Position numbers and translations under genes: made by a program. From Verrucomicrobiota bacterium (GTDB lineage Bacteria > Verrucomicrobiota > Verrucomicrobiia > Verrucomicrobiales > DEV007), in contig JAGWVU010000018.1 in the NCBI GenBank assembly GCA_018970725.1, positions 1 to 64,000 on the forward strand: a stretch of 64,000 nucleotides of DNA. Reading direction: 5' to 3'. This document shows, piece by piece, positions 14,654 through 32,766 of this stretch (position 1 is its first letter; each line of letters starts with the position of its first letter). The notes under the pieces were generated by a model. That model saw only the letters and a list, made by a program, of their open reading frames with translations, searched no databases and had not been told where the DNA came from.

Positions 14654-17600
14654 ATGAAACGCAAGTGGCATCATCCCGAAGCGGGGGCGGAATCCGGGAC
14701 CCGGATGTATTGGCGCGGCTTTGACGAGTTGCAGGACACCCCTGAATTCCGCGAGTGGTTGGAGCGGGAGTTTCCGCGTGGGGCCGCCGAGGTTTCCGGC
14801 CCGGAGGCCGATGAGAGCACGCGGCGCAATTTCCTGAAATATATGGGGGCCTCCGCCTCGCTGGCGGGCTTGGGCTTGGCTGGGTGTCGCCGACCGGACC
14901 AGTTCATCATCCCCTTCAACAAGCACGTCGAGGATCAGATTCCCGGGCGTCCGTTGTATTACAGCTCGGCGCGGCCGGTGGCGGACGGTTGTGTTCCGTT
15001 GGTGGTGACTACTTTCGAGGGGCGTCCCACCAAGGTCGAGGGCAATCGACTTCATCCCGAGTGGAAGGGCGGCAGCGATGTTTTCACGCAGGCTTCCATC
15101 CTCGACCTCTATGATCCGGATCGGTCCGCCGTCTTCCGCAAGGAAGGCGAGGTCTTGGATGGCGACCGTTTTGTCGAGGAATTTGAAAAGGGTTTTCTCG
15201 CTCCGTTCCGGGCGGCGAAGGGCGCCAAGAGCGCTTTGTTGGTCGGCGCCTCGACCTCTCCGACCCGTGAGCGTCTGTTGGCCGAGTTGGTCAAGGCGTG
15301 CCCGGCAGTCAAGGTTTATGAGTATGAGCCGTTGTCGTCGCCGGGGCGGCGCGAAGCGGAGAATCGTTTGTGGGGGGCGGGTATCTCCGCTCTTCCGGTG
15401 CTCGACAAGGCAGATCGGATCCTCTCTCTGGATGCGGATTTCCTCGGTCTCGATCCGCAGGGCGAGGGTTCCAACGGGCGCTGGGCGGCGCGGCGCAAGC
15501 CCGGCAAGGGGATGGCCCGGCTCTATGTGGTCGAGCCGGCTTTCACGGTGACCGGCGGCATGGCGGATCATCGGATGCGGCTGGCGTCGAGCCAAGTGGT
15601 GAAGTTGGCGGTGCTGCTGGCGGAGCAGCTGGGCCTTGCGGCTCAGGTGGCGCCCTTGGTGGCGAAACTTGGGCTGGTGCGGGAATTGATCGATCCTGCC
15701 TGGGTCAAAGAGTGCGCGGCCGACTTGTTGTCCAAAAAAGGACGCTCGGTGGTCCTCGTCGGCTCCCGGCAACCGCTCGAAGTGCACCTCATCGCGGGTC
15801 TCATCAATCAGGCCTTGGGGGCGATCCAAGGGGCCGGCGGACCGCTTCGTCTCGTCCGTCATGGTCGCAAGGCGCTTCCGGGGATCGAGGCCCTTGCCGA
15901 CGCGATTCGGTCGGGTGCGGTCGAAAACGTGGTGGTGACCACGCCCTGCGATCCGTTGTATGACGCCCCGGCCTCGGCAAAGTGGGGTGAAGCGTCGGCC
16001 AAGCTGAAAAATCTCGTGCATCTCGGGGTTCGTCATCACGCGACCGCTCGCGCGGCCACCTGGCACATTCCCGGCGCTCATTATCTGGAGTCGTGGGGTG
16101 ACGTTCGGTCGATTTCCGGCGTGCTGTCGATCGTCCAGCCGATGATTCAGCCGCGTTTCGGGGGGTGGTCGGAATTGCATCTGCTGGCGAAGATGTTGCC
16201 GGTCGCTCCTGCTGCTCCCGGTGAGGCGGCCGGCGGTGCGGACGACGCTGCCTATGTTGCGGTTCGGGCGACCTTTGCGGGCTTGGTCAAAGGGGATGTG
16301 GAGTTGGCCTGGGGCTTGGCCTTGCGCGACGGTTTTTCCAAGGGAACCGGATACCCGGTGGTGGCCCCTGCGGCCACGCCCGCTGCCATTGGGTTTGAGT
16401 CGTTCCCGCTGGTCGACTTTCCCGGTCCGGATGCCATCGAGGTGGTTCTGACGCCGAGTTCCCACGTGTGGGACGGGCGCTTCATCAACAACTCTTGGTT
16501 GCAGGAGGTTCCCGATCCGATCAGCAAGCTGACTTGGGACAACGCGGCGCTGATGAGTCTGGCGACGGCCGACGCCCTTGGCGTGACGCACGATGGGCAG
16601 ATGATTGCGATCAAGGGGGGTGACGGGGTGGTGGTCGAGGTGCCGGCCTTCCGGTTGCCCGGGCAGGCTGATTTCACCATTCTGGTGGAACTTGGGTATG
16701 GTCAGGAGGCGGCCGGTCGCGTTGGCGAGGGGACCGGTTTCAATGTCTATCCGTTGCTGCGCCAGGAGGGGGCATTCATTGTCAGCGGGGCCAAGGCGGA
16801 GCGCACGGGGGCAAAGTATGCGTTGGCGCCGACGGCGATCCATTGGAGTATGGAGGGTCGGGCGATTGTCCGTGAGAATACCGCGGAGGCCTACGAAGAG
16901 TTCGTCGTCAATGGTCACGGGGAGGATTGGAAGAATTTTTCCTACAACCAGGGGATGGACGGGCACATTCCGCCGAATATCCCGCTCTACGAAGGGCCCG
17001 ACTATTTTCGGCCCAACCAGGAACAGAAGGGGGCGCCGCTCCAGGGTCGTTTCACGGTGGACGAGAACCACCAGTGGGGGATGACCATTGATTTGAACAC
17101 CTGCATCGGGTGCAACGCCTGCACGATTGCGTGCCAGGCGGAGAACAACATCCCGGTGGTCGGCAAGGAGCAGGTGATCAACGGGCGGGAAATGCACTGG
17201 ATCCGGATGGACCGGTATTTCTCCAGTCCCCGGGAGAAGGAGGGGATGACGGCGCAACGGGTTTATGTGCCTGAAGGGCGGGGTCGCCCGGCGCACGATG
17301 ATGATTCCGTGGAGATGCTCACCCAACCGGTCGCCTGTGTGCATTGTGAATATGCGCCATGTGAGACCGTCTGCCCGGTCAACGCGACGGTGCACTCGGA
17401 CGACGGCTTGAATTCGATGGCCTACAACCGGTGCATCGGCACCCGTTACTGCGCCAACAACTGCCCTTACAAGGCGCGGCGGTTCAATTATTTCGATTAC
17501 AACAAGCGTCGGACCCGCGACTTCTATCTCGGACCTTTGGCACCGGCCGAGGGCTTGGGGATGACCAGTCTCAAATTGCAGAAGAATCCGAACGTCACGG

Positions 17601-17947
17601 TCCGGATGCGTGGGGTCATTGAAAAGTGCACCTATTGCGTGCAACGCCTGCAAGCAGCCAAGATCGAGGCCAAGGCCAAGGCTCGGGACAGCCGGGATGT
17701 CAAGGTTCCGACCGGTTCGGTGACCACGGCTTGTCAGGACGCCTGCCCGAGTCAGGCGATCACCTTCGGCAACCTCCGGGATGAAAAGGATCCGGTGGTG
17801 AAACTCAAGGAGGATCCGCGGAATTACGATCTTCTGAAATACATCGGGACCCGTCCCCGCACCAGTTACCTCGCCCGGGTTCGCAACCCCAACCCGAAGA
17901 TGCCCGGGGCCGAACAGGTCGGTCAGGGAAGTATCGGGGGTCATTGA
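14654..17947 (+). CDS. actB: ACIII subunit ActB, molybdopterin-fold and iron-sulfur protein
   Basis: A 1097-residue fusion characteristic of ActB. A twin-arginine motif (TRRNFLKYMG, about 56-65) precedes a hydrophobic stretch and Cys78. The N-terminal 780 residues correspond to the molybdopterin-oxidoreductase-like fold, which in ACIII carries no cofactor. The C-terminal ferredoxin part from about residue 812 has cysteine clusters CIGCNACTIAC, CVHCEYAPCETVC, CIGTRYCANNC and CTYC...CQDAC, enough for the usual four Fe-S clusters. It passes electrons from quinol to ActA. It is followed after 21 bases by actC. Confidence 0.92.
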   Translation: MKRKWHHPEAGAESGTRMYWRGFDELQDTPEFREWLEREFPRGAAEVSGPEADESTRRNFLKYMGASASLAGLGLAGCRRPDQFIIPFNKHVEDQIPGRPLYYSSARPVADGCVPLVVTTFEGRPTKVEGNRLHPEWKGGSDVFTQASILDLYDPDRSAVFRKEGEVLDGDRFVEEFEKGFLAPFRAAKGAKSALLVGASTSPTRERLLAELVKACPAVKVYEYEPLSSPGRREAENRLWGAGISALPVLDKADRILSLDADFLGLDPQGEGSNGRWAARRKPGKGMARLYVVEPAFTVTGGMADHRMRLASSQVVKLAVLLAEQLGLAAQVAPLVAKLGLVRELIDPAWVKECAADLLSKKGRSVVLVGSRQPLEVHLIAGLINQALGAIQGAGGPLRLVRHGRKALPGIEALADAIRSGAVENVVVTTPCDPLYDAPASAKWGEASAKLKNLVHLGVRHHATARAATWHIPGAHYLESWGDVRSISGVLSIVQPMIQPRFGGWSELHLLAKMLPVAPAAPGEAAGGADDAAYVAVRATFAGLVKGDVELAWGLALRDGFSKGTGYPVVAPAATPAAIGFESFPLVDFPGPDAIEVVLTPSSHVWDGRFINNSWLQEVPDPISKLTWDNAALMSLATADALGVTHDGQMIAIKGGDGVVVEVPAFRLPGQADFTILVELGYGQEAAGRVGEGTGFNVYPLLRQEGAFIVSGAKAERTGAKYALAPTAIHWSMEGRAIVRENTAEAYEEFVVNGHGEDWKNFSYNQGMDGHIPPNIPLYEGPDYFRPNQEQKGAPLQGRFTVDENHQWGMTIDLNTCIGCNACTIACQAENNIPVVGKEQVINGREMHWIRMDRYFSSPREKEGMTAQRVYVPEGRGRPAHDDDSVEMLTQPVACVHCEYAPCETVCPVNATVHSDDGLNSMAYNRCIGTRYCANNCPYKARRFNYFDYNKRRTRDFYLGPLAPAEGLGMTSLKLQKNPNVTVRMRGVIEKCTYCVQRLQAAKIEAKAKARDSRDVKVPTGSVTTACQDACPSQAITFGNLRDEKDPVVKLKEDPRNYDLLKYIGTRPRTSYLARVRNPNPKMPGAEQVGQGSIGGH

Positions 17948-17968: not shown

Positions 17969-19363
17969 ATGTCTACACCAACCACAGTTGAACAGGATCT
18001 CCGCGGGGTGGCCCGTGAACCGCTGGTGCTCAGCGGTCGGGATTACAAGTGGATCACCAACCGCATTTGCGGTGTCGTGGAGAACAAGCAGCCCTTCGTC
18101 TGGTGGCTCGTGGCCGTTCCGGGCGCGCTGCTGAGCCTCGTGCTTCTTTTCACCTTGGTTTACCTCGTGTCGACCGGGGTGGGGGTGTGGGGGTTGAATC
18201 AGCCGATCGCCTGGGGATGGGACATCACCAACTTCGTGTTCTGGATCGGCATCGGCCACGCCGGCACCCTCATTTCCGCCATTCTGTTCCTGACCCGGCA
18301 AAAATGGCGGACCTCGGTGAACCGGGCCGCGGAAGCGATGACCTTGTTTGCCGTTGTTTGCGCCGGGATCTACCCCGGATTTCACGTGGGACGGTTTTGG
18401 ATGGTTTGGTTTCTGGCTCCGGTGCCGAACTCCAACGCCATCTGGCAGAACTTCAAGTCCCCCCTGTTGTGGGACGTTTTCGCGGTCAGCACCTACTTCA
18501 CGGTGTCGGTCATCTTCTGGTTCATCGGGTTGATTCCCGACTTGGCGACGCTCCGGGACCGGTGCAAGCCCGGTTTGAAGAAGGCGCTCTACGGGATTTT
18601 CTCCTTGGGATGGCGGGGTGGAAACCGCCAGTGGCGCCATTACGAGATGGGTTATCTCTTGCTTGCCGCCCTTTCAACCCCCCTCGTGCTTTCGGTTCAC
18701 TCGGTCGTTTCCTTCGACTTCGCCACCTCCGTGGTGCCGGGTTGGCATACCACGATCTTCCCGCCCTATTTCGTTGCGGGGGCCATCTTCGGCGGGTTTG
18801 CGATGGTGTTGACGCTCATGATTCCTTGCCGGGCCATCTATGGGCTGCACGACATGCTGACGCCGAAGCATATCGACAACATGACCAAGATCATCGTGCT
18901 CACGGGAACGATCGTCGGTTATGCATACCTCATGGAGCTTTTCATCGCTTTCTACGGGGGCAACCCGTTCGAGGTGGATGCGTTCCACATGCGGGCGGTG
19001 AGCGGGCCCTATGTTTGGTCGTATTGGGCCATGATGTTCTGTAACGTGATTGCACCGCAGGCTTTTTGGATTCCGTGGTGCCGCAAGAATCTCGTGGTGG
19101 TGATGTGCGTCTGCATGTGCGTGAACACCGGCATGTGGTATGAGCGTTTTGTCATCATCGCGACCACCTTGGCCCGCGACTTCCTGCCCGGGCAATGGGG
19201 TTATTACGAACCTACCTGGGTGGAAATCGCGATGTTCGTGGGTTCGCATGGGCTCTTCCTCTTCCTATTCGCCCTTTTCATCCGGTTCCTGCCGATGATT
19301 GCGATCAGTGAAGTGAAGGGGGTGTTGCCCCAATCCGACCCCCATCATCATCCCGCGCATTGA
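17969..19363 (+). CDS. actC: ACIII subunit ActC, NrfD-like membrane quinol-binding subunit
   Basis: A 464-residue integral membrane protein with about ten hydrophobic helices and NrfD/PsrC-family features. Conserved elements include [26 protein letters not shown] near residue 75, [11 protein letters not shown] near 137, and [18 protein letters not shown] near the end. ActC carries the quinol site next to the first Fe-S cluster of ActB. A His-rich C-terminus (DPHHHPAH) is unusual but short. Only 15 bases separate it from actD. Confidence 0.92.
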
Positions 19364-19378
19364 GAAAGAGTGGAGACC

Positions 19379-19945
19379 ATGTCAGTGACTACTGAAGACA
19401 AAGTGAAGCGCACCTGGGGCTACGTGGCGGAGTTCGACACCGCGGCTTCTGTCTACGAGGCGGCCAAGGCGATGAAAGAAGGAGGGTATCGCCGTTGGGA
19501 CGTCCATTCCCCCTTTCCGATCCACGGGATGGACGGAGCCATGGGCTTGGGACCTTCGTTTTTGTCCCGGATCGTGTTTTGCGGTGGATTGGCCGGATCG
19601 TTGACGGCGCTTCTTCTGCAGTTCGGCACCCAGGTTGGTCTTTACCCGACCATCGTTCAGGGCAAACCGGACAACCTTTTTACGATTCCGGCCTTCTTCC
19701 CGGTGACTTTCGAACTCACCATTTTGTTCTCCGCCTTCACTATTCTCTTCTCGTTGCTGGTCATCATCCGGTTGCCGCGGCTCCATCATCCTTTGTTTGA
19801 GTCCAAGCTCTTCACGGGATTCTCGGATGACAAGTTCATCCTCTCGGTTGAGGCGCGCGACCCGAAGTTTGCGCGGGAGGGGACGCGGGAGTTTCTCCAG
19901 TCGATCGGGGCCAAACAAGTGGAGTTGGTGGAGGAAGAACTGTAA
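19379..19945 (+). CDS. actD: ACIII subunit ActD (DUF3341)
   Basis: A 188-residue membrane protein of the DUF3341 family. The N-terminal soluble part begins with YVAEFDTAASVYEAAKAMKEGGYRRWDVHSPFP, the conserved ActD opening, followed by two membrane helices (about 55-77 and 98-122) and a C-terminal soluble tail. The ATG at 19379 has GGAG five bases upstream, so it is preferred over a GTG three codons earlier. ActD has no cofactor and has a structural role in ACIII. Confidence 0.9.
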   Translation: MSVTTEDKVKRTWGYVAEFDTAASVYEAAKAMKEGGYRRWDVHSPFPIHGMDGAMGLGPSFLSRIVFCGGLAGSLTALLLQFGTQVGLYPTIVQGKPDNLFTIPAFFPVTFELTILFSAFTILFSLLVIIRLPRLHHPLFESKLFTGFSDDKFILSVEARDPKFAREGTREFLQSIGAKQVELVEEEL

Positions 19946-19969: not shown

Positions 19970-20671
19970 ATGCGTTGGTTTCTTTTGGTATACATTGCGG
20001 TGGCGGTTCTCTGGGTCGGTCTCTTCGGTTGGAAGGGGCAAAAATCCACCAACAGCCCGGTAGAGGTTTTTCAGGACATGGATCACCAGCCGAAGGTCAG
20101 GTTTCAGGTGGCCAGCGATTCGTTCGCGGACGGTCAAGGGAGCCGTCGGCCCGTGGCCAACACCATCTCGATGGGAACACGGGTCCCGACCGCGCCTTCC
20201 GCGGCTGATGGGAGTGATCTGCCCACGAGTTATTTTCGGAGCGGACGTTTCGGGGATTACTTTGGTCAGGGCTTCCCGAAGCAGGTCAAGGTGGACCAAG
20301 CCCTTTTGGACCGCGGCAAGCAGCGGTTTGAGATTTACTGCTCGGTCTGCCATGGACTCACCGGCAACGGGAAAGGGGTGGTCGGGCCGTATTGGACCGG
20401 GGGGATGATGCCGCCGACCTCGAATCTGGTGGATGAGCGGGTCCGGGCGCTGCCTGAGGGGCAGGTTTTCTGGACCATCACCAACGGCAAGGGGTTGATG
20501 GGTCCGTACAACGGGAGCGTGTCGGTCGAGGATCGCTGGGCTATCGTGGCCTACCTGCGGGTGCTACAGGGCAGCGCCCAGGCCGACCCGAATGATCCGG
20601 CGGTCAAGAAACTACTGGAGGAAGCCAAGGTCAAGGTGCCCCAGCCGGTGACGGGTGGGAATCCGTCCTGA
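19970..20671 (+). CDS. actE: ACIII subunit ActE, monoheme cytochrome c
   Basis: A 233-residue cytochrome c with an uncleaved-looking N-terminal helix (residues 3-20) and a single CSVCH heme site at 124-128. The following GLTGNGKGVVG and a downstream Met in GLMGPYNGSVS (candidate axial ligand) complete the pattern. ActE is the terminal cytochrome of ACIII that delivers electrons onward. It is followed by actF after a 40-base gap. Confidence 0.9.
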   Translation: MRWFLLVYIAVAVLWVGLFGWKGQKSTNSPVEVFQDMDHQPKVRFQVASDSFADGQGSRRPVANTISMGTRVPTAPSAADGSDLPTSYFRSGRFGDYFGQGFPKQVKVDQALLDRGKQRFEIYCSVCHGLTGNGKGVVGPYWTGGMMPPTSNLVDERVRALPEGQVFWTITNGKGLMGPYNGSVSVEDRWAIVAYLRVLQGSAQADPNDPAVKKLLEEAKVKVPQPVTGGNPS

Positions 20672-20711: not shown

Positions 20712-22226
20712 ATGAACGAACACAATTCCAAGATCGAGCTGCCGGAGGGTGGCGAGTTGTTTGATTCCAGTAAGGTGGGACCGGTGAAGGCGCTGCTTGG
20801 CTTGATCGGGGCCGTCTGTTTGACCGCCACCCTGATCCTGTTGTTTACGTTCAGCCGGAATGGCGCGGGAGAGCCGAAGCTCGGTGATTGGGCTTCCTAC
20901 TCCTATCTGTTTGCGGTCACGTTTTTCTTCACGCTCGCGGTAGGCGGATTGTTTTGGACGATCTTGCACCACGCCACGAACTCCGGTTGGGGAATCGTGG
21001 TTCGGCGGCAAATGGAAAACATTGCGGGTCTGATTCCCTGGGTGTTCGTCTTGATGATTCCCTTCTTCTTTTCCCAAGTCCGGGATGATCTTTGGGAGCA
21101 TGAGCCGCTGCATCGCGCTCTGGTGGCCAAGACCGAGCCCAAAGTTGCACCGACCTTTGAAAAGGATCACGAGCATTGGGAGCATGAACTGGCGGCTTGG
21201 ATTGGTAGGGCGGATAGTGCAAGGAAGCTGGTAGCCGCTGGCAAGGCCTCGGCGGGTGAAGTAGCCCAGATGACGGTTCGGCTCAAGGAGGCGGAGGCTG
21301 CGGTGGACGAACTCAAGGCGGCGGAGCCCACCGAGGCCTCGGTGCGCCGCAAGCTTCAGGACAAGGACAACCATTTGTTGACGCACAAGTGGGACATGTA
21401 TTTCCATGCCTCGAAGCCACGGTTGATCGCCTACGCCATCGCCTTCATCCTCATGGTGGGGCTTCTGCGCAATTGGTCGCTCACGACCGACAAGGTGGGC
21501 GGGGAGAAACTTTTCCTGCGCAGCCGGTATTGGAGTTGCTTCTTTCTTTTGCCGTTCGGCGTTGGTTTCACCTTTCTTGTGATCGATTTCCTGATGGCGC
21601 TCAACTACGAGTGGTTCTCGACCATGTGGGGGGTTTATCTCTTTGCCGGCGCGGCCTTGAATTCGATGGCTTTGCTCATCATCGTCGTGACCCTGTTTCG
21701 CGAGAACGGGTATCTCCGGCGGGTGGTCAGTCTGGAGCATTACCATCTGATGGGCAAACTGCTCTTCGCCTTCTGCGTTTTCTGGGCCTACATTGCCTTC
21801 AGCCAGTTCTTCCTGATCTGGTATGCGAACATCGCCGAAGAGACCCGGTTCTATCTGCTCCGCAACGCCGAGTGGTGGAACGTGGCCAGCATCGTCTTGG
21901 TAGTGGGGCATTTCTTCATTCCCTTCGTCATCCTTCTCTGGCGTCCCGTGAAGAAGAATCCCCTGCTCATTTCCATTGTGGGTGTCTGGTGCTTGCTGAT
22001 GCATGCCCTCGACATCTACTGGATCGTGATTCCGGAGCGGGCCCCGAGCCTGACCGCCGGGACCACGCCGCGCCTCTGGTCCGGCGAGGCGGTGATTCTT
22101 GATTTGATCGCCTTTCTCGGAGTCGGTTGCACTCTGGCCTACATCTTCCTGGAGAAGCTGAAGGGGGTCAGCCTGTATCCCTGCCGTGATCCGCGGCTCA
22201 ATGAATCCATCAATGTCGTCAACTGA
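20712..22226 (+). CDS. actF: ACIII subunit ActF, second NrfD-like membrane subunit, with coiled-coil insertion
   Basis: A 504-residue paralogue of ActC with about ten membrane helices; FFFTLAVGGLFWTILHHATNSGWG and HLMGKLLFAFCVFWAYIAFSQFFLIWYAN match the ActF family. Unusually, a hydrophilic segment of about 80 residues (roughly 136-220, rich in Lys, Glu, Ala and predicted helical or coiled coil) sits between the VRDDLWEHE helix end and the HKWDMYFHASKP re-entry, where I recall only a short loop in other ActF proteins. The ATG at MNEHNSK was chosen; an upstream in-frame start would overlap actE. Confidence 0.88.
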   Translation: MNEHNSKIELPEGGELFDSSKVGPVKALLGLIGAVCLTATLILLFTFSRNGAGEPKLGDWASYSYLFAVTFFFTLAVGGLFWTILHHATNSGWGIVVRRQMENIAGLIPWVFVLMIPFFFSQVRDDLWEHEPLHRALVAKTEPKVAPTFEKDHEHWEHELAAWIGRADSARKLVAAGKASAGEVAQMTVRLKEAEAAVDELKAAEPTEASVRRKLQDKDNHLLTHKWDMYFHASKPRLIAYAIAFILMVGLLRNWSLTTDKVGGEKLFLRSRYWSCFFLLPFGVGFTFLVIDFLMALNYEWFSTMWGVYLFAGAALNSMALLIIVVTLFRENGYLRRVVSLEHYHLMGKLLFAFCVFWAYIAFSQFFLIWYANIAEETRFYLLRNAEWWNVASIVLVVGHFFIPFVILLWRPVKKNPLLISIVGVWCLLMHALDIYWIVIPERAPSLTAGTTPRLWSGEAVILDLIAFLGVGCTLAYIFLEKLKGVSLYPCRDPRLNESINVVN

Positions 22227-22236
22227 TCCATCGCCC

Positions 22237-22803
22237 ATGAGTCATCCTGGAGACAAGCCCGTGCAGCGTTTCGTGGCCTACTTGGTTGGTTTCGGAGCCA
22301 TGATCGCTTTCGGCGTTCTGGCCCCGGTGCTCTCGTGGTCCGGGTCCCTGATCTGGCCGAGGCGCTCCGCCGTGGACGAGATCGGTGCGCAACGGGCGGA
22401 GGGAGCCCGGAACCTGCGCGCCGAACAGCGGTTGGCGCTGGTCACGGCGTCGACTGATCCCGCGACCAAGACGACCCGGGTTCCGGTGGCCTTTGTCGCG
22501 AAAAACGTCCTGCCCCAGCTGAAAAGCAAGGCCGCCTCCCAGAGCTCGCTCGTTGTTCCCGGAAGCGCCGCCGCTTTGCGGGCCATGCAACCGCCGGCCT
22601 CTCCGGCAGCGCCCGCCGCCGTCGCGCCCAAGCCCGAAGCTCCGCAGCCCGCGCCTCCCAAGGCTGTGCCCGCGCCTCCCAAGGCTGTGCCCGCGCCGCC
22701 CACCCCTCCGGCACCGCCCGCCGCGGTCCCGGTCCCCGCCGCCCCGCCGGTGTCGGCTCCCGCTCCTCCGGCCGTTCCCGCCTCCGGGCCTGCGAAACCT
22801 TGA
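22237..22803 (+). CDS. Small membrane-anchored Pro/Ala-rich protein in the ACIII cluster
   Basis: About 188 residues; no family recognised. One N-terminal membrane helix (about 12-30), then an Arg/Glu-rich helix (DEIGAQRAEGARNLRAEQRLAL), a short segment TRVPVAFVAKNVLPQLKSK, and a 90-residue tail of Ala and Pro with a few Lys. The tail contains two exact 21-base repeats (22648-22689) encoding PAPPKAV. In-frame ATGs at 22201, 22213 and 22237 are all possible starts; the last avoids overlap with actF. The tail would extend away from the membrane, perhaps as a spacer or contact arm. Confidence 0.65.
   Translation: MSHPGDKPVQRFVAYLVGFGAMIAFGVLAPVLSWSGSLIWPRRSAVDEIGAQRAEGARNLRAEQRLALVTASTDPATKTTRVPVAFVAKNVLPQLKSKAASQSSLVVPGSAAALRAMQPPASPAAPAAVAPKPEAPQPAPPKAVPAPPKAVPAPPTPPAPPAAVPVPAAPPVSAPAPPAVPASGPAKP
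22648..22689 (+). repeat. Tandem 21-base repeat, two exact copies
   Basis: Unit cccgcgcctcccaaggctgtg is repeated head to tail, with a partial third copy after it. It is in frame and encodes PAPPKAV twice, so it only lengthens the Pro/Ala tail of the host protein. Confidence 0.85.
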
Positions 22804-22810
22804 TCTTCCG

Positions 22811-24289
22811 ATGACCACCGATACCCTTCCAGCCGGCGATGACGTCCACCTTCGGGCGCGGATCGATCGTTCCCTGCGTTTCCCCCTGCTTTTCTTTTTT
22901 ACCAGCGCGGCGGGATGGCTCTGCCTGAGTTCGCTCCTCGGGTTTGTCAGTGCCCTGTCGCTGAATGTCCCGGAATGGTTCGACCGTCTTCCGGCCCTTC
23001 ACTACGGCCGGCTTTATCCGGTGCATGTCAATGCGTTGATTTACGGTTGGGCGATGCAGGCCGGGTTCGGCGTTTCCCTTTGGTTGATGGCGCGTCTCAG
23101 CCGGAATGTTTTGCGCAATCCGGTGACCTTGGTGGTGGCCGGGCACGTCTGGAATCTGGTGGTTTCGGTCGGGCTTCTCTCGATTCTCTTGGGCTGGGGG
23201 ACCTCGATGCCATGGCTTGACTTCCATCGCGGGATCAGTCCGGTCCTGGTGATCAGCTACGTCTCGATTGTGATCTGGATTGTGGGCATGTTCGCCTCCC
23301 GGGCGGAAAAGTCAGCCTTCGTTTCCCAGCTTTACATCCTGGCTTCGGTTTTCTGGTTCCCTTGGATCTACGTCACGGCCAACGGCTTCATCCATCAGGA
23401 CGACGGTGCCGCCGTGATGAAGGCGGCGGTCAACTCCTGGTATATCAGCAACATGATTTACATGGTGCTGGCTCCGGTGGCGCTGGCTGCTTCCTACTAC
23501 ATCGTTCCCAAGGTCACGGGGCGTCCGGTTTTCAGCTATGCCTTGGCCAACATCGGTTTCTGGAGTCTGGTGCTCTTCACCGGTTGGACCGGGATGAGCC
23601 GTTACATGGGAGGACCGCTGCCGGCCTGGCTGCCTACGGTGGGTGGCGCGGCCTCCATCTTCCTCCTCATCCCGGCTCTGGCGGTGGTTTACAACCAAGT
23701 CAAGACCATGGAAGGCAAGCTGGCCTGGGCGAACTACAGCCCGGCGCTCCGGTTCGCCTTCTTCGGAAGCATTGCGTTCCTCGTCGGAGTTGCCTTGAAT
23801 GCGATCGTCTCCACGTTCCCCATCGGGAGGACGTTGCAGCTGACCCAGGCGCAGGGGGGAATCGATTTGGTGGCCGTTTACGGATTTTTCACCATGACCA
23901 TGTTCGGAGCGATCTATTTCATCGTGCCGAGAATCGTCGGGTGTGAATGGCCGAACGGTCCGATGATCCGCTTTCACTTTTGGTTCTCCGCCTACGGCAT
24001 TGGAGCCATTGCGGCCTTCATGATCTTCGCGGGTCTCGCCCAAGGCCATGTCATCGCCAATTACACCGAGGAGTTCATCACCGCAGTGGAGCGGGGCAAA
24101 CCTTACCTCGCGGCTCTTGCCATCGGTTGGTTCCTCATCGGACTGTCGAACCTTTCCTTCGTTGCCCAGCTCGCCTTGATGGTCATCCGCCGCGGACGGC
24201 GTGACGACGAGGGGCCGACCCTGATTCACAAGAAACCGGAAGATTACTTCACCCACGAACTCGTCACCGAAAAGGCGGCCCAAGCATGA
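22811..24289 (+). CDS. CcoN-like heme-copper oxidase subunit I homologue lacking active-site ligands
   Basis: A 492-residue, roughly twelve-helix protein related to cbb3 oxidase subunit I. Shared landmarks are YGRLYPVHVNALIYG with His72 (one heme b ligand), SYYIVPK, MFGAIYFIVPR and RFHFW. The cofactor ligands are missing. Where CcoN has WWYGHNAV (CuB His), this protein has SWYISNMI (Ser213). Where CcoN has YIWAGPHHL, it has FTGWTGMSR. Where CcoN has GHVHAG (heme b3 and heme b His), it has TQAQGG (Gln346, Gln348). The frame is intact and all helices are present, so decay is unlikely. It probably cannot reduce oxygen. The alignment is from memory of Pseudomonas CcoN. Confidence 0.8.
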   Translation: MTTDTLPAGDDVHLRARIDRSLRFPLLFFFTSAAGWLCLSSLLGFVSALSLNVPEWFDRLPALHYGRLYPVHVNALIYGWAMQAGFGVSLWLMARLSRNVLRNPVTLVVAGHVWNLVVSVGLLSILLGWGTSMPWLDFHRGISPVLVISYVSIVIWIVGMFASRAEKSAFVSQLYILASVFWFPWIYVTANGFIHQDDGAAVMKAAVNSWYISNMIYMVLAPVALAASYYIVPKVTGRPVFSYALANIGFWSLVLFTGWTGMSRYMGGPLPAWLPTVGGAASIFLLIPALAVVYNQVKTMEGKLAWANYSPALRFAFFGSIAFLVGVALNAIVSTFPIGRTLQLTQAQGGIDLVAVYGFFTMTMFGAIYFIVPRIVGCEWPNGPMIRFHFWFSAYGIGAIAAFMIFAGLAQGHVIANYTEEFITAVERGKPYLAALAIGWFLIGLSNLSFVAQLALMVIRRGRRDDEGPTLIHKKPEDYFTHELVTEKAAQA

Positions 24290-24936
24290 ACAGTCTGAAG
24301 CCATTCCTGATTCTCATCGCCCTGGCTTTCCTGATGCCGTGGCTCGTCCTCATCGTTTATCCTTCGGCGAGGCTCAAGGCTTACGTCACGGAGGTGGCCT
24401 ATGCGAAGGAGGACGACACCAAGGACGCCGTGTTCCCCACGGGCCGTTCCTATTTGGTCGCGGGTGCCCGGGTCTATGCGGCCAACGGATGTGCCTACTG
24501 CCATACGCAGATGATCCGGCCAACCTACGCCGGGGCGGATCGTTGGCGCTCGGGATGGTCGGGGCGCGAGGAGGATGGTTTGGCCCGGGAAACCCTGCCC
24601 TTCGATTTTCTCGGTGAGCGCTATGCCTATCTCGGGGTGCAGCGCAACGGGCCGGATCTGAGTAACGTCGGTCACCGCATCAAGGAGGCCAAGTGGCATT
24701 ACGACCACCTTTACAATCCGCGCAAGGTGGTGGCTGGCTCCATCATGCCGGCTTTCACCAACCTCTTCACGACCCGTCCGGTGGTGGGTCAGGTCTCCGA
24801 ACTGGCGGTGGATGTCGTGGACCGCGGGGGCAGCCAGTATGAGGTGGTGCCGAGCGGCGAGGCGAAGGCCCTCGTGGGTTACCTCCTCGGCATGAAGAAA
24901 GACCAAAAGGTGCCGAAGAGCATCGTGGCCAAGTGA
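24286..24936 (+). CDS. CcoO-like membrane cytochrome c
   Basis: A 216-residue cbb3-subunit-II homologue whose ATG overlaps the preceding stop (ATGA). An N-terminal anchor (about 7-26) precedes the heme site C69AYCHTQMIRP, the classic CcoO signature. The downstream conserved blocks LGVQRNGPDLSNVGHR, WHYDHLYNPR and SIMPAF, with a Met as likely axial ligand, are intact. Unlike its CcoN-like partner, this subunit keeps its cofactor site and could carry electrons. No CcoP gene is present. Confidence 0.88.
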   Translation: MNSLKPFLILIALAFLMPWLVLIVYPSARLKAYVTEVAYAKEDDTKDAVFPTGRSYLVAGARVYAANGCAYCHTQMIRPTYAGADRWRSGWSGREEDGLARETLPFDFLGERYAYLGVQRNGPDLSNVGHRIKEAKWHYDHLYNPRKVVAGSIMPAFTNLFTTRPVVGQVSELAVDVVDRGGSQYEVVPSGEAKALVGYLLGMKKDQKVPKSIVAK

Positions 24937-24955: not shown

Positions 24956-25723
24956 ATGAACGAAGAACTTCCCAATCCAGATACCACACACCTCGACTAC
25001 GGCGAGCGTTCCAGCGTCGTGGAGATCCATGCGGCGGTGCAGCGCGAGAAGCGGGAGCCGTTGTCCGGATTCCAGCCGGTGTCGATGATTGCGATTGTCA
25101 CCGCTGGCCTGATTCTGGTCCTCGGAGGAACCTACCTTGGAGCTTACAATGGCGGCTTCGATCTTAAGAAGAGCTACGCCGTCGCCAACTACACCGCGGC
25201 TCCCCGTCCGGTGATCCCCGGTTTTGAGGTCAAGGTGGACAATCGTCCCTGGATTGATCGGTGGACGGAGGCTGGCAAGGAAGTCTACGCGACGTGTGCC
25301 GCCTGCCACCAGCCCAACGGGAATGGGTTGGTCGGACAATTTCCTCCGTTGGCGGGCTCCGAATGGGTCGTCAATGGGAGCGAGCGCCTTGGGGCGATCA
25401 TGTTCCCGGGCATTCTCGGGGCCATCAATGTCAAGGGACAGGTCTACAACGGGGTCATGCCGGCCCAGGGAGCCTTGTTGAGCGACAAACAACTGGCCCA
25501 GGTCCTGACCTACATCCGGCGTTCGTGGGGGAATAACGGGTCGATCGTCACCGAAGAGATGGTGAAGGTTGCCCGCGACAAGTATGGTTCCCGGGTGCAA
25601 CCGTGGAGCGAGGCGGAGTTGATGGCGATCCCCGGGGATGCGATGTTGCCTGGAGCGGAAGTGGATCCCCTCACCGGTTTGGCCCCCGGGGCATCTCCGG
25701 CGTCAACCCCGGCCGGTTCCTGA
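24956..25723 (+). CDS. Membrane-anchored monoheme cytochrome c
   Basis: A 255-residue protein with a 40-residue cytoplasmic N-terminus, one membrane helix (about 43-63) and a cytochrome c domain with C114AACHQPNGNGLVG and a candidate axial Met in YNGVMPAQG. The C-terminus is Pro/Ala/Ser-rich. It lies between the CcoNO-like pair and ctaD, so it could shuttle electrons to the CuA site, since CtaC here has no fused cytochrome domain. The ATG at MNEELP was chosen over a TTG two codons upstream. Confidence 0.86.
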   Translation: MNEELPNPDTTHLDYGERSSVVEIHAAVQREKREPLSGFQPVSMIAIVTAGLILVLGGTYLGAYNGGFDLKKSYAVANYTAAPRPVIPGFEVKVDNRPWIDRWTEAGKEVYATCAACHQPNGNGLVGQFPPLAGSEWVVNGSERLGAIMFPGILGAINVKGQVYNGVMPAQGALLSDKQLAQVLTYIRRSWGNNGSIVTEEMVKVARDKYGSRVQPWSEAELMAIPGDAMLPGAEVDPLTGLAPGASPASTPAGS

Positions 25724-25792: not shown

Positions 25793-27712
25793 ATGAGCGC
25801 GACCGAGGCATCCCATTCAGAGGCACACGATCATCATGATGGGCACGATCATCATGAGCTTTCGTTCTGGCAAAAATACGTGTTCTCCACGGATCACAAG
25901 GTGATCGGCATCCAGTATGGGATCACGTCCTTGATCTTCCTCGCCATCGGGTTTTTCCTGATGATGGTGATGCGCTGGAGCATCGCTTACCCGGATCGCC
26001 CGCTTCCGATGGTGGGGGATTGGCCCTTCTTCAACAAGTGGATCGGCGAGGACGGCTTGGTTACGGGTGACCTCTATAACATGTTCGGTGCGATGCACGG
26101 CACGATCATGGTGTTCCTCGGGGTCGTGCCGCTGGCCTTTGGCGCTTTCGGGAACTACGTGACTCCGTTGCAAATCGGTGCGCCTGACATGGCCTTTCCG
26201 AGGCTCAACATGGCGAGCTACTGGTTCTACTTACTTGGTGGCGTCTTGATGTTTATCAGCTTTTTCCTTGATTCCGGGGCCGCCAAAGCGGGATGGACCA
26301 ACTATTCCCCGCTCGCGAACATCACGGATCAGCAGTATCGCGATCTTTTCTGGACGAGCCAGACCCAGTGGTTGATGGCCATGGTGTTTCTCATCACCTC
26401 TTCCCTGCTCGGGGCGGTCAATTTCATCACGACCATCATCAATCTCCGGGCCAAGGGAATGACTTGGATGCGGCTGCCCTTCTTCTGCTGGGCCCAGCTC
26501 GTTACCGGGTTTCTCCTGCTGCTGGCCTTCCCCCCGCTTGAGGTGGCGGCCGTCATGCAGCTGATGGACCGCCTAGCCGGGACCAGCTTCTTCATCCCGA
26601 CCGGGCTACACGTTGGCGGAAATATGGTGGATGCCGCCGGTGGTGGCAGTCCTTTGCTCTACCAGCACCTCTTTTGGTTTCTCGGGCACCCTGAGGTGTA
26701 TGTCTTGATCCTGCCCGGGATCGGCATCGTGGCGGAGATCGTGGCCAACAACACGCGCAAGCCTCTTTGGGGTTACAAGACGATGGTGGGCGCGGTGATG
26801 GTTCTGGGATTCCTGAGCTTCATCGTCTGGGCCCACCACATGTATCTCACCGGGATGGGGACGGCGATTTCGACATTTTTCCAGACTACGACGGTTTTGA
26901 TCTCCATCCCCTCGGTCATTCTGATCACCTCGATCTTGCTCTCGATGTGGGGTGGTTCCATCCGGTTCACCATGCCGATGCTATGGGCGACCGCGTTCAT
27001 TCCAATGTTTGGGATCGGCGGCCTGACCGGGCTTCCGCTGGCCTTCAACTACCTCGACCTGCACCTCCACGATACTTACTATGTGATCGGGCATTTCCAC
27101 TACGTGGTCGCACCCGGGACCATTTTCGCCCTCTTCGCGGGGATTTACTATTGGTATCCGAAGCAGACGGGGCGTCAGATGAACAGCTTCCTCGGGCACC
27201 TTCATTTTTGGCCTTCGCTCCTCTGCATGAATCTGATCTTTGCCCCGATGTTCATCCAAGGAATGGCCGGGATGCACCGTCGCGCCTTCGATGGGGGAGC
27301 GGCTTATGAGCAAATCTCCAGTCAGGTGTATCTCGAGCAAGGGCATCCTTTGGCGGTGCTCTTCAACGCCATCTTCCGTGGTGGCGCGGATCTACCGGTC
27401 GAGGTGATCAACCTGAATCTTTTGACGTCGGCTGGGGCTTTCCTTCTGGCACTGGCCCAGGTCCCGTTCGTCATCAATTTCTTTCTGAGCATGTTCCGCG
27501 GGGCGAAGTCCGACGAGCGCAACCCCTGGCAGGGCACGACTTTGGAGTGGATGTGCCCGACGCCGCCGCCCCATGGGAATTTTGACCGTGAACCGGTCGC
27601 TTACCGCGGTCCTTACGAATACAGCGTTCCGGGTGAGGAGCGGGATTTTACGCCCCAGTTTGAACCGGACACCCGCGTGACCGAGGCCCGGCCGCTTCCC
27701 TCCTTGCATTGA
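25793..27712 (+). CDS. ctaD: Cytochrome c oxidase subunit I (caa3/aa3 type)
   Basis: Catalytic subunit of the terminal oxidase, 639 residues, twelve helices plus a C-terminal extension. All ligands are present: AMHGTIMVF (low-spin heme His), HPEVY (CuB His, cross-linked Tyr and the proton-channel Glu), VWAHHMY (two CuB His) and DTYYVIGHFHYV (heme a3 and heme a His). IGAPDMAFPRLN keeps the D-channel aspartate region. These mark a type A oxidase. A His/Asp-rich N-terminus (residues 8-22) is notable. Confidence 0.96.
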   Translation: MSATEASHSEAHDHHDGHDHHELSFWQKYVFSTDHKVIGIQYGITSLIFLAIGFFLMMVMRWSIAYPDRPLPMVGDWPFFNKWIGEDGLVTGDLYNMFGAMHGTIMVFLGVVPLAFGAFGNYVTPLQIGAPDMAFPRLNMASYWFYLLGGVLMFISFFLDSGAAKAGWTNYSPLANITDQQYRDLFWTSQTQWLMAMVFLITSSLLGAVNFITTIINLRAKGMTWMRLPFFCWAQLVTGFLLLLAFPPLEVAAVMQLMDRLAGTSFFIPTGLHVGGNMVDAAGGGSPLLYQHLFWFLGHPEVYVLILPGIGIVAEIVANNTRKPLWGYKTMVGAVMVLGFLSFIVWAHHMYLTGMGTAISTFFQTTTVLISIPSVILITSILLSMWGGSIRFTMPMLWATAFIPMFGIGGLTGLPLAFNYLDLHLHDTYYVIGHFHYVVAPGTIFALFAGIYYWYPKQTGRQMNSFLGHLHFWPSLLCMNLIFAPMFIQGMAGMHRRAFDGGAAYEQISSQVYLEQGHPLAVLFNAIFRGGADLPVEVINLNLLTSAGAFLLALAQVPFVINFFLSMFRGAKSDERNPWQGTTLEWMCPTPPPHGNFDREPVAYRGPYEYSVPGEERDFTPQFEPDTRVTEARPLPSLH

Positions 27713-27750: not shown

Positions 27751-29130
27751 ATGGAAATCCCTTACACAGTCTCCGCCCGGCGTGACACCGGCCTGTTCAA
27801 TTCAAAGGTTGGCATCTGGTTGTTCCTCGCTTCTGAAGTGATGTTGTTCGGCGGCCTTTTTTCGGGCTACGTTTTCCTCCGGGCCGGGGTCCGACCGGGG
27901 GTTGACCTGCCTTGGCCTGACGCTGTGTATGTCCATGGTCCCTTCATCTGGCTCGGTTTTTTGAACACATTGGTCCTGATCGCCTCGAGCGTGTTTGTCG
28001 TGCTGGCCTGGGCCCAGCTCAAGATGAGACGGTATGGGATGTATCAGTTCTACATGTCACTGGTGTTGGTCTGCGCGGCGGGGTTCATGGTGGTGAAGAC
28101 GATCGAGTACAACTCCAAGCTCAATCATCACTTCGGAGCCCGCCTGTCAGATGGCACGCTTCTCGACGGTGCCTTGGTGGCGGACGATTCGCATCACTGT
28201 CCCGGCGACTACGTCACCTTCGAGGCGGACAAGGCAGTGTTTTCCTTGGCGCGCACGGGCATCTTCCGCAAGTTGGACCCCTACTTTCTCGATTTCGCGG
28301 TATTGAAGGGCGGGGAGGAGATGGTGGTCAATGCGCCCGGCGGCAAACAGTTGAAGGGGGTTGCGGAGTTGTCGGCCTGGCTGGAAGAGTATGCCGCACA
28401 GAATCCGAGGGAGGCCCGGGTCACCGCCGGGTTCGCCAAGCCCGTGACCTTCCAGTTCCGGCGCAAGGATGTCTTTGGAAAGCGCGTCTTCCCGGATCGC
28501 GTCCCATTGTTCCGGGGGAACGAGCTTCAGGGCAAGCTGATCGACGACACCGTCGAGATCGAGGTGCACACGGTGGATCTCCAGATGGTCCGGGATGAGG
28601 AGAAGTCGCTCGCCTGGGCCTATTTGGGCGAGGGCTACAAGGCGGGTTACGAGGGCCATAAGAAGGAAAAGCTGAACGATCCCTTGCACCGTCGCTTTTT
28701 GGAGAAGGGCGGCACGTTGCCCGGCGGGCAGCTTCGGATTTGGCAGCATCCCCACCCGGCCGGTGAGCATGGGGGTGAGAAGGCGGCCGCCGGTGGTCAC
28801 GGGGAGGCGTCCGCGGCTCACGGTTCTTCGGACGGCCATGGCGGTCATGGTGCTCCGGTGGTCTCCATCAAGGGCAGTGACATCCATTTTATGGGGGCGC
28901 ACGGTCCGAAATTCGGCACCTATTACGCGATCTATTTCACCATGACCGCGTTGCATGGACTCCACGTGGTGGGGGGCGCGCTGGTGCTGGCCTATTTCCT
29001 CTTCTTCGGGCGCAAGCTTTACCGGAAGAATCCCGAGCATCTGGCCAACCGCGTCGAGGTTGGCGGGCTCTTCTGGCACTTTGTCGATCTGGTCTGGATC
29101 TTCCTGTTCCCGATCATGTATTTGATGTGA
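27751..29130 (+). CDS. ctaE: Cytochrome c oxidase subunit III with a large soluble insertion
   Basis: A 459-residue protein, about twice the usual length. Residues 1-125 and 385-459 give the normal subunit III helices (GIWLFLASEVMLFGGLFSGYVF; YFTMTALHGLHVVGGALVLAYF; GLFWHFVDLVWIFLFPIMYL). Between them, after MVVKTIEYNSKLNHHFG, lies an insertion of about 255 residues. It includes mixed alpha/beta segments (VNAPGGKQLKGVAELSAWLEEYA; DDTVEIEVHTVDLQ) and a His/Gly/Ala-rich stretch (about 333-366). I do not recognise the inserted domain. Confidence 0.9.
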   Translation: MEIPYTVSARRDTGLFNSKVGIWLFLASEVMLFGGLFSGYVFLRAGVRPGVDLPWPDAVYVHGPFIWLGFLNTLVLIASSVFVVLAWAQLKMRRYGMYQFYMSLVLVCAAGFMVVKTIEYNSKLNHHFGARLSDGTLLDGALVADDSHHCPGDYVTFEADKAVFSLARTGIFRKLDPYFLDFAVLKGGEEMVVNAPGGKQLKGVAELSAWLEEYAAQNPREARVTAGFAKPVTFQFRRKDVFGKRVFPDRVPLFRGNELQGKLIDDTVEIEVHTVDLQMVRDEEKSLAWAYLGEGYKAGYEGHKKEKLNDPLHRRFLEKGGTLPGGQLRIWQHPHPAGEHGGEKAAAGGHGEASAAHGSSDGHGGHGAPVVSIKGSDIHFMGAHGPKFGTYYAIYFTMTALHGLHVVGGALVLAYFLFFGRKLYRKNPEHLANRVEVGGLFWHFVDLVWIFLFPIMYLM

Positions 29131-29152: not shown

Positions 29153-29569
29153 ATGGAATCATCCACCGAAGACCTGCAGAAGCACGTGAGGACCTACCTG
29201 ATGGTGGGGGCCACGCTGTTTGTGTTCACGATCGTCACCGTCCTTGTTCGCACCGTGCCCTTTTTTGACTTCGGGGTGCCCGGGGTGGACGCGCCGGACA
29301 TTGCTTTTGGCCTGGTGATTGCCACCTTCAAATCAAGTTTGGTCATGTTGATTTTCATGCACCTCAACCACGAGCGGGGCTTGATTTACAAGGTGCTGGT
29401 CTTCACGGTGGCGTTCGCCATCAGCCTGATGGGGCTGACCCTTTTTGCCCAGGGGAATCCGATTCGTCCTCATGCCGATGTCATCGAGCATCTGCACGTC
29501 TCTGATGTGACTGCGGCAGACGTCGAGAGCAAGGCTCCCGGCGCCAAGGCGGAGCCGGCCAAGCACTGA
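29153..29569 (+). CDS. ctaF: Cytochrome c oxidase subunit IV (prokaryotic type)
   Basis: A 138-residue protein with three hydrophobic segments. The central FGLVIATFKSSLVMLIFMHLNHE matches the prokaryotic COX4/CyoD-like family (helix with Lys, then FMHL). It is an accessory subunit that stabilises the CuB centre region in related oxidases. Its tail is Ala/Glu/Lys-rich and hydrophilic. It follows ctaE by 22 bases. Confidence 0.88.
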   Translation: MESSTEDLQKHVRTYLMVGATLFVFTIVTVLVRTVPFFDFGVPGVDAPDIAFGLVIATFKSSLVMLIFMHLNHERGLIYKVLVFTVAFAISLMGLTLFAQGNPIRPHADVIEHLHVSDVTAADVESKAPGAKAEPAKH

Positions 29570-30023: not shown

Positions 30024-30818
30024 ATGGATCCGGTCTTCGCTTTCAGCATCACCAAGTTTCTCGGCCAGCCCGAAGCCGCCTCGCGTCATGCGGGTCAGAT
30101 CGACCACATGAACGAAGTGGTTCACTGGTTCATGCTGGTCCTGTTCGTGGGCTGGACCCTGTTTTTCTTTGTGACGTTGTGCAAGTTCCATCGCAAGGCC
30201 AACCCGAAGGCGAGCTACCGGGGGATCACCTCCCACTTCAGCACGCACCTCGAAATCATCGTGGTTCTGGTGGAGGTCGTTCTGCTCCTCGGATTTGCTT
30301 ACCAGTTGTGGTCGGAGCGGGTCGATGGCATCCCGTCCGCGACGGACAAGGACGTGGTGCGGATCCGCGCGGTGGGAGAGCAGTTCCGTTGGAGTTTCCA
30401 TTATGCGGGTGAGGATGGTCTCTTCGGCCTGGTCAGCGCCGAGCGGATCGATGCCGGGAATCCCGTTGGTTTGGTCAAGGAGGACCCGAGCTCCAAGGAC
30501 GATTTCCTCTCCCCCGAGTTGATGTTGCCAAAGGGGCGGAAGGTGGTGATCCAAGTCACGGCCAAGGATGTGATCCACAATCTGGCCCTTGTCCCGATGC
30601 GGATCCAGCAGGACGCCATCCCGGGAATGGAGATTCCGATGTGGTTTGTTCCGACGAAGACTGGTCGTTGGGACATCGTCTGTGCGCAGTTGTGCGGGGC
30701 GGCCCACGCGAAGATGGTGGCCAAGATGAAGTGCGTTGAGGATGCCGAATACCAAGACTGGGCCTCCGGTCGGAGCAAGGCAGCCAAGGCGGCCGCGGTG
30801 GCTGTGGCGAAGAATTGA
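30024..30818 (+). CDS. ctaC: Cytochrome c oxidase subunit II (CuA)
   Basis: A 264-residue subunit with two membrane helices (about 34-52 and 76-96) and a periplasmic cupredoxin domain. CuA ligands are complete: His185 in KDVIHNLAL, Cys220, Cys224, His228 and Met231 in CAQLCGAAHAKM. EQFRWSFHY is the usual aromatic segment near the electron entry site. No fused cytochrome c domain is present, so electrons must come from a separate cytochrome. Its place after ctaD-ctaE, rather than first, is unusual. An Ala/Lys-rich tail ends the protein. Confidence 0.94.
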   Translation: MDPVFAFSITKFLGQPEAASRHAGQIDHMNEVVHWFMLVLFVGWTLFFFVTLCKFHRKANPKASYRGITSHFSTHLEIIVVLVEVVLLLGFAYQLWSERVDGIPSATDKDVVRIRAVGEQFRWSFHYAGEDGLFGLVSAERIDAGNPVGLVKEDPSSKDDFLSPELMLPKGRKVVIQVTAKDVIHNLALVPMRIQQDAIPGMEIPMWFVPTKTGRWDIVCAQLCGAAHAKMVAKMKCVEDAEYQDWASGRSKAAKAAAVAVAKN

Positions 30819-30836: not shown

Positions 30837-31856
30837 ATGCAGGGTTTCCTTCACCGCACCGCCCAGACAGCCCTTGTTTCGCTGCTTCTCCTGATCTTCG
30901 TCGGGGCCACGGTGCGCGCCACCGGCTCCGGCTTGGGTTGTCCGGATTGGCCCACCTGTTGGGGATGCCTGGTTCCGCCTTGGAAGGCTTCCCAGATTGA
31001 TCCGGCGCGGCTGGACCTCGAGCGGTTTCGGCGCAACGCCGAACGACATGGGATCGATCCGGCCACGATCACGCCGGACACGGTGCTCAGCCGGTTCAAC
31101 CCGGTGCATACCTGGGTGGAGTTCGTCAACCGGCTCACCTCCCTGCCGCTCGGATTGTCGACCCTGGTGCTTTTCCTCGCGGCGTTCTCTGCCCGTCGCC
31201 ACCGGGTTTGGCTCTGCGTGGTGGCGTTCCTCAGCCTGGCGGACGTGATTGGCAACGCCTGGCTTGGGGCCGAGGTGGTGCACAGCGGGCTGAAGCCGGG
31301 CGTGATCACCACGCACATGGCGCTGGCCTTCGCCCTGATCTGCCTGTTGACGACCGCGGTTCGTTTGACGGCGGATCCCGGTGGACGACCTGCCGTGGAG
31401 ATCGGGCCTTTGCGGCGCAGGATCGTCTGGGTGTCCGTGCTCTTTTTTGGATGTCTGGTCACGGAAGGGATCATGGGCAGTCAGGTTCGGGAGCATACCG
31501 ATGAACTGGCCAAGTCCGCCGGGCAGCTCGACCGGGCGGAGTGGACGGGAATTTTGGAGCAAACCGGGATCTATCTGATCCATCGGAGTGCTTCATGGAG
31601 CCTGTTGGTCACCTCGGCGTTGCTGTTGTTTTGGATCCGGTGCTCGCAGCGACCGGGGGCGATGCGGCCGCGGCTTCTCTTTGCCGGAGTGTTGGCCATG
31701 ATGGTGATGGGAGTCATTCTGGCTCATGTGGCGGTGTTCCGGGTGGTGCAAGTCTTGCATGTGGGATTGACCGCGGTGCTGCTTTCCGTGGCTTGGGGGT
31801 GGCTTCTGGAACTGTTCACCGCGGACCTCGTTGCCAAGGAGGCCACGCGGACGTAG
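30837..31856 (+). CDS. ctaA: Heme A synthase
   Basis: A 339-residue membrane enzyme of the COX15/CtaA family that converts heme O to heme A for the oxidase encoded upstream. GATVRATGSGLGCPDWPTCWG is the conserved N-terminal motif with a pair of cysteines. Conserved histidines appear in NPVHTWVEFVNRL, TTHMALAF, LIHRSASW and LHVGLTA. The two halves show the internal repeat of four-helix bundles. Confidence 0.93.
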   Translation: MQGFLHRTAQTALVSLLLLIFVGATVRATGSGLGCPDWPTCWGCLVPPWKASQIDPARLDLERFRRNAERHGIDPATITPDTVLSRFNPVHTWVEFVNRLTSLPLGLSTLVLFLAAFSARRHRVWLCVVAFLSLADVIGNAWLGAEVVHSGLKPGVITTHMALAFALICLLTTAVRLTADPGGRPAVEIGPLRRRIVWVSVLFFGCLVTEGIMGSQVREHTDELAKSAGQLDRAEWTGILEQTGIYLIHRSASWSLLVTSALLLFWIRCSQRPGAMRPRLLFAGVLAMMVMGVILAHVAVFRVVQVLHVGLTAVLLSVAWGWLLELFTADLVAKEATRT

Positions 31857-31857
31857 C

Positions 31858-32766
31858 ATGGTGTCGATGATGCCTCCCGGATCGGTTGAACGCACTCCCG
31901 CCGGAAGTGTTTCCTGGAGTGATTTGGTCACGTTGACCAAGGCGAAGTTAAGCGCCTTGGTCGTGGCTACCACGGGCTCCGCTTTTCTTTCCGGTTGGCC
32001 GGCCGGGGAAGCGATGGCTCCGTTGCGTCTGTTGCACACGGTGCTGGGAACAGCTCTGGCGGCCTTCGGGGCGGCGGTTTTCAACCAGCTCCTCGAGATC
32101 GATGCGGACCGGAGCATGCGACGGACCGCGGACCGGCCGTTGCCGGCGGGCCGGATTCCCGTGCCTGCGGCGTTCGGGATCGGATGGATTTTGAGCGCTC
32201 TGGGCATCGTGCACCTCGGAAAAACCGTGAACACGGAGGCCGCCCTGCTGGCCGGGCTCACGATTGCCGTTTACATCTTCGTTTACACGCCGATGAAGCG
32301 TCGCTCCGTCTCCAACACCATCGTTGGCGCGATTGCCGGGGCCTTGCCGCCTGTGATCGGATGGGTCGCGGCGCACGGTGCTTTCGGGCCGGGGGCGGTC
32401 TGGTGGTTCGCCCTGCTCTTCTTTTGGCAGCTTCCCCATTTTTATGCCATCAACTGGATCCATCGGGAGGAATATCGCCAGGCCGGGTTCATCATGCTGG
32501 CGAACCGCGATGACTCGGGAGGGCGCACCGCCTTCTGGTCCCTGACGTGTTCCGTGCCGCTGATCCTGCTGGCCCTTTGGGCACCGCTGATCCCTTTGGC
32601 GCGTTGGTGGTTCGTGGTCCCCGGCATTTGCGCCGGCGGGTTTGTGGTTTGGAGGGCGCTCCGTTTCCAGAGGGATCGGAACGCGGGGACCGCCCGCAGC
32701 CTTTTTTTCGCGACGCTGATTTACCTGCCCCTGATGATGGCAGCGGTCATCCTGGCCAAACCCTGA
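31858..32766 (+). CDS. ctaB: Protoheme IX farnesyltransferase (heme O synthase)
   Basis: A 302-residue UbiA-superfamily prenyltransferase that farnesylates heme b to heme O. NQLLEIDADRSMRRTADRPLP is the Asp-rich prenyl-diphosphate site, and YTPMKRRSVSNTIVGAIAGALPPVIGW the conserved second region. The ATG lies one base after the ctaA stop; an earlier in-frame ATG would overlap ctaA. It is the last gene of the respiratory cluster and faces bioB with an 11-base gap. Confidence 0.94.
   Translation: MVSMMPPGSVERTPAGSVSWSDLVTLTKAKLSALVVATTGSAFLSGWPAGEAMAPLRLLHTVLGTALAAFGAAVFNQLLEIDADRSMRRTADRPLPAGRIPVPAAFGIGWILSALGIVHLGKTVNTEAALLAGLTIAVYIFVYTPMKRRSVSNTIVGAIAGALPPVIGWVAAHGAFGPGAVWWFALLFFWQLPHFYAINWIHREEYRQAGFIMLANRDDSGGRTAFWSLTCSVPLILLALWAPLIPLARWWFVVPGICAGGFVVWRALRFQRDRNAGTARSLFFATLIYLPLMMAAVILAKP

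Follow-up and report, generated by a model that had tools for sequence, protein, structure and literature searches.

Why should a bacterium retain an oxidase subunit that has lost its oxygen-reducing site, and what could such a protein do between two respiratory complexes? The question arises from a gene at 22811-24289 (+) of the window, by which we mean the whole 64,000-nucleotide stretch analysed from a Verrucomicrobiota bacterium (contig JAGWVU010000018.1, assembly GCA_018970725.1). It encodes a CcoN-like subunit I without the heme-copper ligand set, here called degenerate CcoN, and lies in a row of plus-strand genes that opens with the ACIII cluster: actA (13852-14625; multiheme cytochrome c with cytochrome c7/c3 Pfam matches, start chosen by eye, homologues mostly carrying five CXXCH motifs), actB (14654-17947; molybdopterin-like/iron-sulfur subunit, TIGR04519 and Fer4), actC (17969-19363; NrfD-like quinol subunit, PF03916), actD (19379-19945; PF11821 ActD, 190 bits), actE (19970-20671; mono-heme cytochrome c, PF13442/PF00034) and actF (20712-22226), which has no family match and was assigned by position, its place being conserved and phmmer homologues occurring in related loci. 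A spacer gene (22201-22803), whose Pro/Ala-rich product has one apparent membrane segment, stands between actF and ccoN. Behind ccoN follow genes for two membrane-anchored mono-heme cytochromes c, one ccoO-like (24286-24936; CAYCHTQ and SIMP; PF02433 FixO with 76 bits, TIGR00781 with 73 bits at a cut-off of 201), which overlaps ccoN by 4 bases, and one ccoP-like (24956-25723; CAACH; PF00034, weak TIGR00782).

The row ends with an A-type oxidase and its heme synthases, namely ctaD/coxA for subunit I (25793-27712; TIGR02891, 562 bits), ctaE/coxC for subunit III (27751-29130; PF00510), cox4 for subunit IV (29153-29569; PF03626), ctaC/coxB for subunit II (30024-30818; PF00116), ctaA for heme A synthase (30837-31856; PF02628) and ctaB for heme O synthase (31858-32766; PF01040, start chosen by eye). 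The first-pass annotation had taken this oxidase for a caa3 type. It is of the aa3 type, as a cytochrome c domain is missing from subunit II, whose translation shows the CuA motif CAQLCGAAHAKM; in related loci CtaC has the CuA motif in 77 of 78 cases and CXXCH in 0 of 78. Subunit III (459 aa) contains a large inserted loop of about 250 residues mid-protein, read from the translation; it is similarly long in most Verrucomicrobiales copies and measures about 270-291 aa in methanotroph copies.

The reading frame of degenerate ccoN runs unbroken from ATG to stop over 492 aa, so the gene is intact, as had been claimed. Its product scores 136 bits against PF00115 (COX1; cut-off 34.8), and only 116 bits against TIGR00780 (ccoN), whose curated cut-off is 583; that the general COX1 model accepts such a protein matters for annotation. 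An AlphaFold model built from 28 orthologues (mean pLDDT 88, pTM 0.90) matched CcoN of 3mk7 with TM-scores of 0.84/0.89. The best solved matches were cbb3 CcoN chains (E 1e-21 versus 2e-11 for NOR), with NO reductases and A/B-type oxidases well behind. By fold and sequence homology the protein is a CcoN: it shares with cbb3 (C-family) CcoN a twelve-helix type fold, about 24% identity and the adjacent ccoO/ccoP-like genes, but differs in its ligand and cross-link residues, its lack of ccoS and its low family score. Only two COX1-family proteins, degenerate CcoN and CtaD, were found in the draft genome that holds the window (96.5% complete).

Ligand columns were read from an alignment of the protein with 149 homologues and with P. 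stutzeri CcoN, whose 3mk7 chain numbering is used here; which of them serve CuB, heme b3 or heme b we take from general knowledge of the cbb3 structure. All three CuB ligands are replaced (H207 by S213, H257 by S263, H258 by R264), as are the heme b3 ligand H345 (I351), the cross-linked tyrosine Y251 (T257) and one of the two heme b ligands (H347, now L353). H60, the other, is kept as H72 and is the sole survivor among the seven positions. The loss of the CuB histidines, the cross-linked tyrosine and two heme histidines, proposed from the sequence at the outset, is therefore upheld, and in the window protein the CuB and b3 columns hold no other His. One detail of that proposal was misplaced: HVH had been equated with QAQ (346-348), six residues before its real equivalent, I351-D-L353. 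Intact homologues read GHAHHGLYA where the window protein has G-I351-D-L353-V-A; their alignment rejects the earlier register and leaves the conclusion on ligand loss unaffected. Besides the ligands, R57, E122, E125, S276, Y317 and two glycines are kept in intact sequences and lost in Verrucomicrobiales, several of them presumably lining the heme pocket or the proton path in cbb3, and 22 other positions are conserved in both intact and degenerate proteins.

How widespread is this loss? A match was found in 51 of 57 sampled relatives, some matches being a second, canonical CcoN. A wider scan used one genome per species; its best 80 named loci (257 weaker ones besides) all belong to Verrucomicrobiota by title. 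The site is lost in 112 of the 149 collected homologues and all seven residues are kept in 37 (38 with the Pseudomonas reference included). Retention across the family is near all-or-none, with relics: Prosthecobacter-type proteins retain H60 and H207, and the f10 lineage (loci L157 and L192) retains the two ligands of the low-spin heme b, H60 and H347, and lacks the CuB/b3 residues. CcoN of the f10 lineage may be an intermediate still able to bind one heme. Orthologues from other assemblies (93% and 86% identity) show the same losses as the window protein.

A tree built without the ligand columns requires at least two changes of ligand state; the very divergent protein of L153 (68 bits) was excluded from conclusions. 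The protein of L190, with the ligand string AAGVNQQ, nests inside the intact clade on an end branch of 0.62, compared with 0.05-0.23 in its nearest neighbours, and forcing all degenerate rows together was rejected (p-AU 0.018; long-branch rows dropped beforehand). These topologies argue for at least two separate losses of the catalytic site.

Linkage of degenerate ccoN to act and cta genes is conserved across Verrucomicrobiales, where the aa3 genes directly follow ccoP, and the placement between ACIII and an A-type oxidase noted for the window thus holds for the order. Among class members outside the order that carry degenerate CcoN, many have no A-type oxidase in the operon; 24 of 25 genomes with degenerate CcoN that were checked encode another COX1 protein of A-type score (at least 418 bits). 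The closest intact relatives are stand-alone ACIII-linked CcoN proteins of other Verrucomicrobiia families (L154, L155, L156, L178 and others), encoded in the order actABCDEF-(spacer gene)-ccoS-ccoN-ccoO-ccoP. They share with degenerate CcoN the place after actF and the flanking ccoO and ccoP, but keep all seven residues and have ccoS upstream, and no aa3 genes were found in the stretches that carry them. In one such genome (G057, 99% complete) the intact act-linked CcoN is the only detected COX1 protein, a gene content that fits a working ACIII-cbb3 chain.

CcoH, CcoI and CcoS have been reported as essential for an active cbb3 oxidase (PMC7558416). Each of the 18 intact act-linked loci has a ccoS gene, as against 0 of 97 degenerate ones; nine of the 18 seeded the profile used, which leaves nine as independent. 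Pfam FixS matched beside intact ccoN in five genomes, missing three intact genomes, and had no match in genomes whose only act-linked-type CcoN is degenerate; CcoG had no match in genome G000. Degenerate CcoN of the window is accompanied by a ccoO-like and a mono-heme ccoP-like partner, and CcoS was found neither in its operon nor in its genome. Genome G006 carries both types: a degenerate act-linked CcoN (L196) and, apart from its act genes, an intact one accompanied by CcoS (L158).

As in the CcoO-like protein of the window, the heme motif CXXCH is retained in degenerate loci, in CcoO 110 times out of 110 and in CcoP 105 times out of 107. The presumed axial Met of CcoO (SIMPAF) is found in all intact and in 84 of 112 degenerate loci; in the remaining quarter or so it is often Cys, Ser or His, so CcoO may not relay electrons in all of them. 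Where a locus has an additional cytochrome c gene, this position is Cys in 11 of 12 cases, and the two features together suggest, at the level of sequence, that the heme relay was rewired. Loci with two CcoP-type genes include L094, L099, L102, L104, L105, L106, L108, L110, L112, L198 and L210. The extra gene of L104 (9158-9970) and that of L196 (14136-15044) look like a fusion of the spacer protein with a cytochrome c domain. Homologues of the spacer gene, whose product is a conserved small membrane protein, were detected with a home-made profile in 18 of 18 intact and 42 of 97 degenerate act-linked loci.

Our best reading is that degenerate CcoN descends from an ACIII-linked cbb3 oxidase and no longer has a catalytic function. 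We give a probability of roughly 0.6 to the view that it now serves as a cofactor-free membrane platform for the CcoO/CcoP-like cytochromes between ACIII and aa3; this scaffold or relay role is inferred. The ancestor would have been an ACIII-cbb3 operon; once aa3 took over oxygen reduction, CcoN would have lost its cofactors, being kept as the platform that anchors the cytochromes beside ACIII. Electrons would pass from ActA/ActE via CcoO/CcoP to CuA of aa3, whose CuA subunit carries no cytochrome c domain, a gap that CcoO/CcoP could fill. Degenerate CcoN is predicted to have no oxygen reductase activity, and it would not be expected to pump protons by the cbb3 route. The first-pass annotation had offered a structural or an electron-relay link in a supercomplex. 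The structural link fits the operon, but CcoN itself lacks two His that could hold a low-spin heme, and its H72 varies, so that the attached cytochromes are the plausible relay. As for the stronger claim that the dead CcoN-CcoO-CcoP module, its core lost at least twice, is an obligatory electron bridge from ACIII to a second working oxidase, we see even odds. In Rhodothermus, ActE by itself is able to pass electrons straight to caa3 (PMC5928083), and extra carriers are hence not strictly needed.

Which other explanations have to be weighed? Loss of catalytic residues would, on its own, also be expected of a decaying pseudogene or an assembly artefact. This reading has next to no probability left and is ruled out by the open frame in the orthologues examined, the matches in most relatives, the kept operon order and a dN/dS of 0.045-0.058 (window versus its two nearest relatives), which is like that of ActE, ActB, CcoO, CcoP and CtaE, the values being rough because synonymous sites are near saturation. 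The degenerate protein is an old feature retained under purifying selection, and the suggestion that the gene was kept despite the loss of its site is supported. Since the fold of subunit I is shared among heme-copper proteins, it might instead be an NO reductase or another heme-copper variant with different ligands, or have been recruited elsewhere, for example for ion conduction. This is very improbable, as cbb3 CcoN clearly outranks NOR in structure and no conserved His or acidic set stands in for the lost ligands. NorB is marked by FeB ligands of three His and a Glu, plus its heme His ligands; with no His at the corresponding metal columns, identity with NorB was rejected, and the residue pattern fits no NO reductase. 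A protein that binds one b-type heme through H72 and a further partner, and relays electrons through the membrane, also seems improbable, if slightly less so. H72, which had been singled out as the only remaining ligand, does stand alone in the window protein and is His in 66 of 87 Verrucomicrobiales members, and both ligands of the low-spin heme b persist in the f10 lineage. As a family trait it fails: Phe takes its place in the other 21 members, most of the remaining degenerate lineages have lost it, the window protein has Leu for H347, and CcoS is absent. No new conserved His pair was found in the Verrucomicrobiales proteins; the single fully conserved His, H389, is ancestral rather than a new ligand, because 35 of 38 intact sequences share it, and H112 is only partly conserved (78%).

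The main rival to the platform holds that degenerate CcoN does no more than help to assemble or stabilise an ACIII-aa3 supercomplex, with CcoO/CcoP off the main electron path. We regard it as rather unlikely, yet as a serious contender: the presumed axial Met of CcoO varies in part of the family, donation in Rhodothermus can proceed directly from ActE to caa3 (PMC5928083), and the gene is present in class members without linked aa3 genes. Against it stand the nearly complete retention of CXXCH in both cytochromes, the gain of a further cytochrome c domain at the locus in some lineages and the lack of a heme c in the aa3 oxidase of the window.

The platform reading can be set beside known systems. 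Rhodothermus (ACIII-caa3) and Flavobacterium (ACIII-aa3) likewise have an ACIII cluster joined to an A-type oxidase, and direct electron transfer in these supercomplexes has been proposed (PMC5928083). A CcoN-like subunit is not mentioned in the accessible parts of these accounts, which describe an extra cytochrome c domain in subunit IIc or ActA; the ActA domain of Flavobacterium seems to stand in for the one in subunit IIc (PMC5928083), and ACIII there contacts the oxidase via subunit III (PMC8361435). By analogy, CcoO/CcoP could fill a gap similar to that filled by the extra domain of ActA or by IIc. The orphan CcoN subunits of P. aeruginosa are also CcoN-family proteins in an unusual gene context, but are described as supporting oxidase function (PMC5697931), whereas degenerate CcoN is without the ligands needed. 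The open-access literature searched yielded no account of an inactive CcoN next to ACIII. A 2026 genome paper (PMC13274419) lists the three genes directly after actABCDEF as caa3; by position they could be degenerate ccoN, ccoO and ccoP.

The reading has consequences for verrucomicrobial methanotrophs. According to the Kam1 genome paper, ACIII is accompanied by a cbb3-type complex IV (PMC6688271), papers on these methanotrophs name a cbb3-type oxidase as the neighbour of ACIII (PMC6688271, PMC8498564), and reviews count what seems to be this locus as a cbb3 oxidase. Four pmoA-positive genomes in our sample, which from pmoA and synteny we infer to be the organisms of those papers, have act, degenerate ccoN, ccoO, ccoP and cta genes in this order, with the ligand string SESSHFV and no catalytic set. 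Inferences on low-oxygen respiration from the act-linked CcoN gene of methanotrophs should thus be revisited. In a large group of Verrucomicrobiota, a degenerate CcoN strictly conserved between two respiratory complexes probably acts as a non-catalytic platform. A dead heme-copper subunit kept across an order, with its site lost on at least two occasions, suggests a use of the oxidase fold beyond oxygen chemistry.
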